Source: a virus
DNA: 35,311 bases
IMG/VR virus record: IMGVR_UViG_3300018432_000012
Location: 1 to 35,311 of that record
Reading direction: 5' to 3' (one strand)
Positions 33,793-34,044 of the stretch are shown piece by piece (the stretch's first letter is position 1; every line of letters begins with the position of its first letter). The position numbers and the translations under genes are program-made. A model generated the notes under the pieces. It made no database searches, had not been told where the DNA came from, and was given only the letters and a program-made list of their open reading frames with translations.

Positions 33793-34044
33793 TTATTCGC
33801 CCTGCTTTTGGTTTGATAAGTTTATAGCCATTGATTTTTTAGCAAAAAAGCAAGCTTCTTCGAGCTTCGTTTTGACTATACTAAATTCTCTGGATGAAGT
33901 TGATGTTGTTAACAGTTGTTCTAAAGCCGTCAAAAATGTATCAAATAGATCTCTTATTAAACCTGCTTTCTCTAGCCCAATATCGCTTAATTTGTGCACT
34001 TCAAATTCTTTATTTCTCTTTATAACAGTATCTAAATTTTCCAT
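33793..34044 (-). CDS. Acb2/Tad1-hook-like protein (candidate anti-CBASS sponge)
   Basis: An 83-residue helical protein. From residue 17 it follows the Acb2-type pattern: a helix with HKLSDIGLEKAGLIRDLFDT, a short loop, then SREFSIVKTKLEEACFFAKKSMA, very like the 'sRe.slA.tkLEeA.mwA.kAi' helix of the family. Acb2 proteins form hexamers that sequester the cyclic nucleotides made by CBASS and related defences. The tryptophan common in the last helix is replaced by Phe. GAGGAAA precedes the ATG. It is last before the terminator, a typical accessory position. Assigned from remembered pattern; a profile search would settle it. Confidence 0.58.
   Translation of the reverse strand: MENLDTVIKRNKEFEVHKLSDIGLEKAGLIRDLFDTFLTALEQLLTTSTSSREFSIVKTKLEEACFFAKKSMAINLSNQKQGE

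Follow-up and report, generated by a model that had tools for sequence, protein, structure and literature searches.

The 83-aa protein encoded at positions 33793-34044 of the viral DNA analysed here is a genuine member of the Acb2/Tad1-hairpin family, and its gene is real. The window, i.e., the whole stretch of DNA under analysis, spans a viral record in its entirety (35,311 bases). We consider it very probable that the gene specifies an Acb2-family counter-defence sponge, a homo-oligomer that would hold nucleotide second messengers of the host. The protein represents a new Acb2 homologue from a small podovirus-like phage, in an already known family. The gene and its immediate surroundings comprise:

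33793-34044, minus strand: Acb2-family gene, 83 aa, Acb2/Tad1 hairpin PF24729 (Pfam, PDB and AlphaFold)
34050-34056, minus strand: Shine-Dalgarno-like GAGGAAA, ending 5 nt ahead of the ATG (sequence)
about 33662-33704, minus strand: strong terminator hairpin that ends the small-gene block (RNA fold)
34148-34256, minus strand: tRNA-like cloverleaf upstream of the acb2 gene (fold; Rfam score below cut-off)
34263-34541, minus strand: 92-aa neighbour with two hydrophobic stretches (sequence; no family match)

Translation confirmed the ORF, with an ATG start and a product of 83 aa (MENLDTVIKRNKEFEVHKLSDIGLEKAGLIRDLFDTFLTALEQLLTTSTSSREFSIVKTKLEEACFFAKKSMAINLSNQKQGE), in agreement with the coordinates and protein length given in a preliminary description of this DNA. 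The hook motif SREFSIVKTKLEEACFFAKK occupies residues 51-70. The motif reported earlier is therefore real but does not form the C-terminus, since SMAINLSNQKQGE still follows it. Directly downstream of the gene, the terminator hairpin consists of 18 pairs followed by U's (-21.3 kcal/mol, z = -5.9), as the preliminary description had proposed.

The tRNA-like RNA that had been noticed next to the gene folds into a cloverleaf (-40.6 kcal/mol, z = -3.3), but its match to the Rfam tRNA-Sec family reaches 34 bits against a cut-off of 47, and ARAGORN called no tRNA at this position. It has an 8-bp acceptor stem, a 5-bp T arm with GTTCGAC, a 10-bp long variable arm and a TCCA after these elements, and is without a regular anticodon arm. 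BLAST found no match to this RNA in the sequenced part of the sister phage L039, and an exact search of viral contigs for its 3' end returned none. The RHH label previously given to a neighbouring gene is weak, the MazE-like Pfam match (E 0.073) lying below the cut-off.

The family assignment is carried by sequence profiles. PF24729, the Acb2/Tad1 hairpin family, matched residues 17-71 of the 83-aa protein with 33.1 bits (E 6.7e-8), above the curated gathering cut-off of 27 bits; both the earlier family call and the profile comparison suggested with it are borne out by this score. Among control records, T4, L002 and L012 were positive for the same profile and L039 was negative. The sole full-length match among solved structures was 9ptq, "Acb2 homolog 43" (phmmer E 1.2e-5), and a profile built from 26 relatives found the same structure with E 1.4e-14. 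T4 Vs.4 was matched marginally by this 26-relative profile (E 0.23), the hook motifs of the two lining up in register.

Relatives at 38-62% protein identity were found at 30 loci on other viral contigs, where frame and motif are kept, and this conservation, as judged from the sequences, exceeds chance by far. PF24729 was recovered at E <= 1e-3 in 25 of the 26 aligned relatives, and F14, F34, L38, R52, T59-A64, F66 and K70 are invariant in all of them. Other searches with the 83-aa protein were silent: tblastn against 50,697 phage isolate records gave no match at E 0.01, no Acb2 model of NCBIfam matched, and PADLOC left the acb2 gene unflagged. A clade relative used as the query does find Mycobacterium and Gordonia phage proteins. 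A genome scan with the family alignment returned three contigs only, too few to point to a host.

The AlphaFold2 model built on the alignment is a hairpin with a mean pLDDT of 86, in which residues 12-14 are helical and two long antiparallel helices span residues 21-45 and 52-73. It has the short N-terminal helix of the family and no beta domain; no strands of three or more residues were present in the model. VIA-align placed 9ptq first (Z 8.8, 1.3 A over 65 residues, 35% identity) and T4 Vs.4 (7uq2) second, with PaP2 Acb2 at Z 6.3. Since two-helix hairpins easily reach middling Z values with many unrelated chains, the weight of the fold argument lies on the small rmsd and on the sequence match obtained independently of it. 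Foldseek against the PDB gave nothing significant, with 7uq2 lowest at E 0.27, so the argument uses VIA-align together with sequence. The top predicted viral matches of Foldseek in BFVD were nearly all named Acb2/Tad1 hairpin proteins. The expectation of an Acb2-like helical fold, voiced in the preliminary description, agrees with this model, whose best match is a solved Acb2 homologue.

The C-terminal hairpin of Tad1 belongs to the same Pfam family, but Tad1 carries an N-terminal beta-sheet domain that is absent from the 83-aa protein. Identity with Tad1 itself was rejected on the length of 83 aa and the lack of a beta domain in the model.

Several positions that line the ligand pockets of characterized Acb2 proteins can be traced in the alignment. 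F14, invariant in 26/26 relatives, aligns with T4 Y8 and PaP2 Y11, with Phe instead of Tyr. R52 aligns with PaP2 R67, which we take to be part of the trinucleotide pocket, and T59 aligns with T4 T68; both are invariant in 26/26. R31 aligns with PaP2 K26, a position occupied by Ala in 16 of the 26 relatives. T4 F82 is replaced by Ala in the 83-aa protein, as it is in PaP2. Both of these observations count against the sponge reading, as do the weak similarity to the biochemically tested Acb2 proteins (T4, PaP2) and the Foldseek result for the PDB. In T4, substitution Y8A disables Acb2, disrupting both its binding of cyclic dinucleotides and the activation of Panoptes (PMC12657218, PMC12657230). 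T68M reduces binding (PMC12657230), and the escaper F82C no longer has the Phe that stacks on the base (PMC12657218). As far as alignment can tell, the pocket is conserved at its aromatic, Arg and Thr positions. The PaP2 Acb2 sequence used here was taken from the PDB alignment; a motif-pattern search for Acb2 in the PaP2 genome found nothing.

By analogy with solved Acb2 proteins, we infer oligomerisation, binding and a counter-defence role for the 83-aa protein. The protomer, a predicted two-helix hairpin with a short N-terminal segment, would associate into a compact homo-oligomer, a hexamer, and the pockets between its protomers would bind and hold nucleotide second messengers of host anti-phage systems. 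With the messengers held, the effectors would stay off and infection would go on. The hexamer of characterized Acb2 accommodates three cyclic dinucleotides plus two cyclic trinucleotides; these are the ligands of the classical T4 and PaMx33 proteins, and Tad1 and Tad2 additionally take gcADPR (PMC12043709).

Comparison with the known proteins bears on the ligand. Like 9ptq, the window protein is a short hairpin (63-76 aa) with an N-terminal F..H motif and a GRE...KTKLEEA.FFA.K helix, and both lack the inter-helix insertion of T4 and PaP2. The two differ in that identity is about 35-38%, in that EEACFFAKKSMA of the window protein corresponds to EEAMFFATKAAA in 9ptq, and in the longer N-terminus and extended inter-helix loop (TTSTSS) of the window protein. 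T4 Acb2 (Vs.4, 7uq2) shares the hairpin, the aromatic at Y8 and the TKL.EA hook with T68, but its helices are separated and followed by long inserted sequence, and it has the base-stacking F82; the profile-profile link to the T4 type covers the hook helix only (probability 38%, E 3e-4). PaP2/PaMx33 Acb2 (p26, 8h2j/8ixz) has Y11, K26 and R67 where the window protein has F14, R31 and R52 but is too distant to be found by sequence search from the window protein. The Mycobacterium and Gordonia phage "cyclic nucleotide inhibitor" proteins (e.g., Balomoji gp102) are likewise short hairpins with a GREKAVVKTKLEEAMFWANAAIA hook; they read FWANAAIA where the window protein has FFAKKSMA and form their own branch of the tree. 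In this tree T4/PaP2 split from the rest at a poorly supported fork, and the window protein is not the sister of 9ptq. The alignment places the window protein in a short subgroup without the T4/PaP2 insertion.

The 9ptq entry is titled "in complex with 3'cADPR", a molecule that serves as a Thoeris signal (PMC13232231). Since the crystal of the nearest solved homologue contained this molecule, and since the insertion is absent from both proteins while the T4 link is confined to the hook helix, 3'cADPR appears, by analogy, a slightly likelier candidate ligand than CBASS nucleotides. The cyclic di- or trinucleotides of CBASS are quite possible ligands too, and both together are possible. A sponge of the Acb2 homolog 43 kind, directed at Thoeris (3'cADPR or a related signal) and acting little on CBASS, would fit 9ptq being the only significant solved relative as well as the missing insertion in both proteins, but the identity of just 35-38% and the position of 9ptq outside a sister relationship weaken the analogy, and we would put this reading a little short of an even chance. 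A strict CBASS sponge, binding cyclic di- and trinucleotides like T4/PaMx33 Acb2 and not cADPR-type signals, would retain the founding activity of the family and is consistent with F14, R31, R52 and T59 at the dinucleotide and trinucleotide pocket positions; against it stand the 3'cADPR in the nearest solved homologue, the absence of the T4/PaP2-type insertion and a T4 profile match limited to the hook helix, so that we give this reading somewhat less than an even chance.

The earlier wording that such proteins sequester signals of CBASS and Thoeris is reasonable, whereas "anti-CBASS", which headed that description, was its least secure part: with 9ptq bound to 3'cADPR, this term is less sure than "nucleotide immune-signal sponge". 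For the same reason, namely the Thoeris signal bound by the nearest solved relative, the name may mislabel the clade. We tentatively suggest, with roughly one chance in three in mind, that the short "FFAKKSMA" clade has moved from CBASS dinucleotides to a TIR-made cADPR-type signal, or holds both classes in separate pockets. If the shift were true, many genes labelled anti-CBASS would actually be anti-Thoeris. The small proteins of the clade lend themselves to comparison across a panel of ligands. Acb2 triggers Panoptes (PMC12657218, PMC12657230), and carrying Acb2 could therefore be a liability.

The genomic setting places acb2 near the packaging genes, which lie at:

32794-33165, minus strand: probable small terminase, TerS (DUF5681; Pfam 4.6e-8), the next gene in the late direction, immediately preceding TerL in the window as in L039
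31359-32864, minus strand: terminase large subunit, TerL (PHROG 2, 5.2e-23)

Portal, terminase and major head protein suggest a small podovirus-like phage, which also has recombination genes (Sak4, SSB, Gam), an initiator of replication and a pair of repressor-like regulators. The closest isolates by TerL are 36-38% identical, e.g., Pelagibacter phage Hodr, Methylophilales phage MEP301 and Pasteurella phage Pmp11. In the sister L039 (TerL 61% identical), replication genes, nuclease, o116, small genes, TerS and TerL form one run. The window record was probably cut within this replication-to-TerL run, and its left and right ends probably belong together, since L039 carries the same genes as one run across that point. 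The location of acb2 first described, with the replication arm on one side and the late operon on the other, holds if the record is circularly permuted in the L039 order. The distance from o116 to TerS is about 0.7 kb in L039, compared with several kilobases of small genes in the window, among them the tRNA-like RNA and acb2. With this short interval and the absence of PF24729 from L039, acb2 is seen to belong to a variable block of accessory genes where the early and late regions meet.

Acb2-like genes recur close to terminase genes in other phages. In L014, L015, L023 and L028 the gene lies 0.3 kb or less after TerL, in L008, L010, L013 and L020 a terminase gene follows 2-3 kb downstream, and in the window about 0.9 kb separates acb2 from the start of TerL downstream. 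Arthrobacter phage Jasmine has the acb2-like gene two genes ahead of TerL, and NC_041875 gp9 (L057) is an acb2-like gene within about 3 kb of TerL. At least eight unrelated phages have the gene within about 3 kb of TerL, a count that was made after the pattern was noticed and carries no formal chance level. This proximity, and the fact that helical hairpins are common, would suit a hairpin protein with another job, e.g., a small adaptor near DNA packaging that resembles Acb2 by fold alone. Such a role is very improbable, given that a curated sequence profile matches besides the fold, that the sister with its closely similar packaging module lacks the gene, and that some relatives lie far from the terminase, e.g., in L030, where the family gene sits beside a ribonucleotide reductase gene instead.

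We also considered an operon common to the relatives and rejected it, as their flanks are nearly unrelated to the window; the exceptions are two single-gene matches (o116 in L002 and the VRR nuclease in L006) together with a portal gene matched weakly in L013. These unrelated flanks, together with the sister L039 lacking the gene, indicate that acb2 is a mobile accessory gene. Among uncultured phages the short clade is widely spread and mobile. One clade member (L037:8001-8198) is encoded on a contig binned as Bathyarchaeota, near phage-type genes for RecT, integrase and PAPS reductase, which makes the contig either part of a virus of archaea or phage DNA placed in the wrong bin.

Further genes of the window phage deserve mention. 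The two repressor-like regulators (4721-5014 and 4154-4684) suggest a temperate lifestyle, but the early plus-strand region contains no integrase-sized ORF, its longest being the 225-aa Sak4. A YiiX/YaeF-like permuted papain-fold enzyme is encoded at 13029-13619 (minus strand) at the end of the late operon (Pfam C92, 2.3e-12), and a phage-borne CsrA lies just past the recombination genes at 7855-8043 (plus strand), matching NCBIfam PRK01712 with 116 bits against a cut-off of 73.
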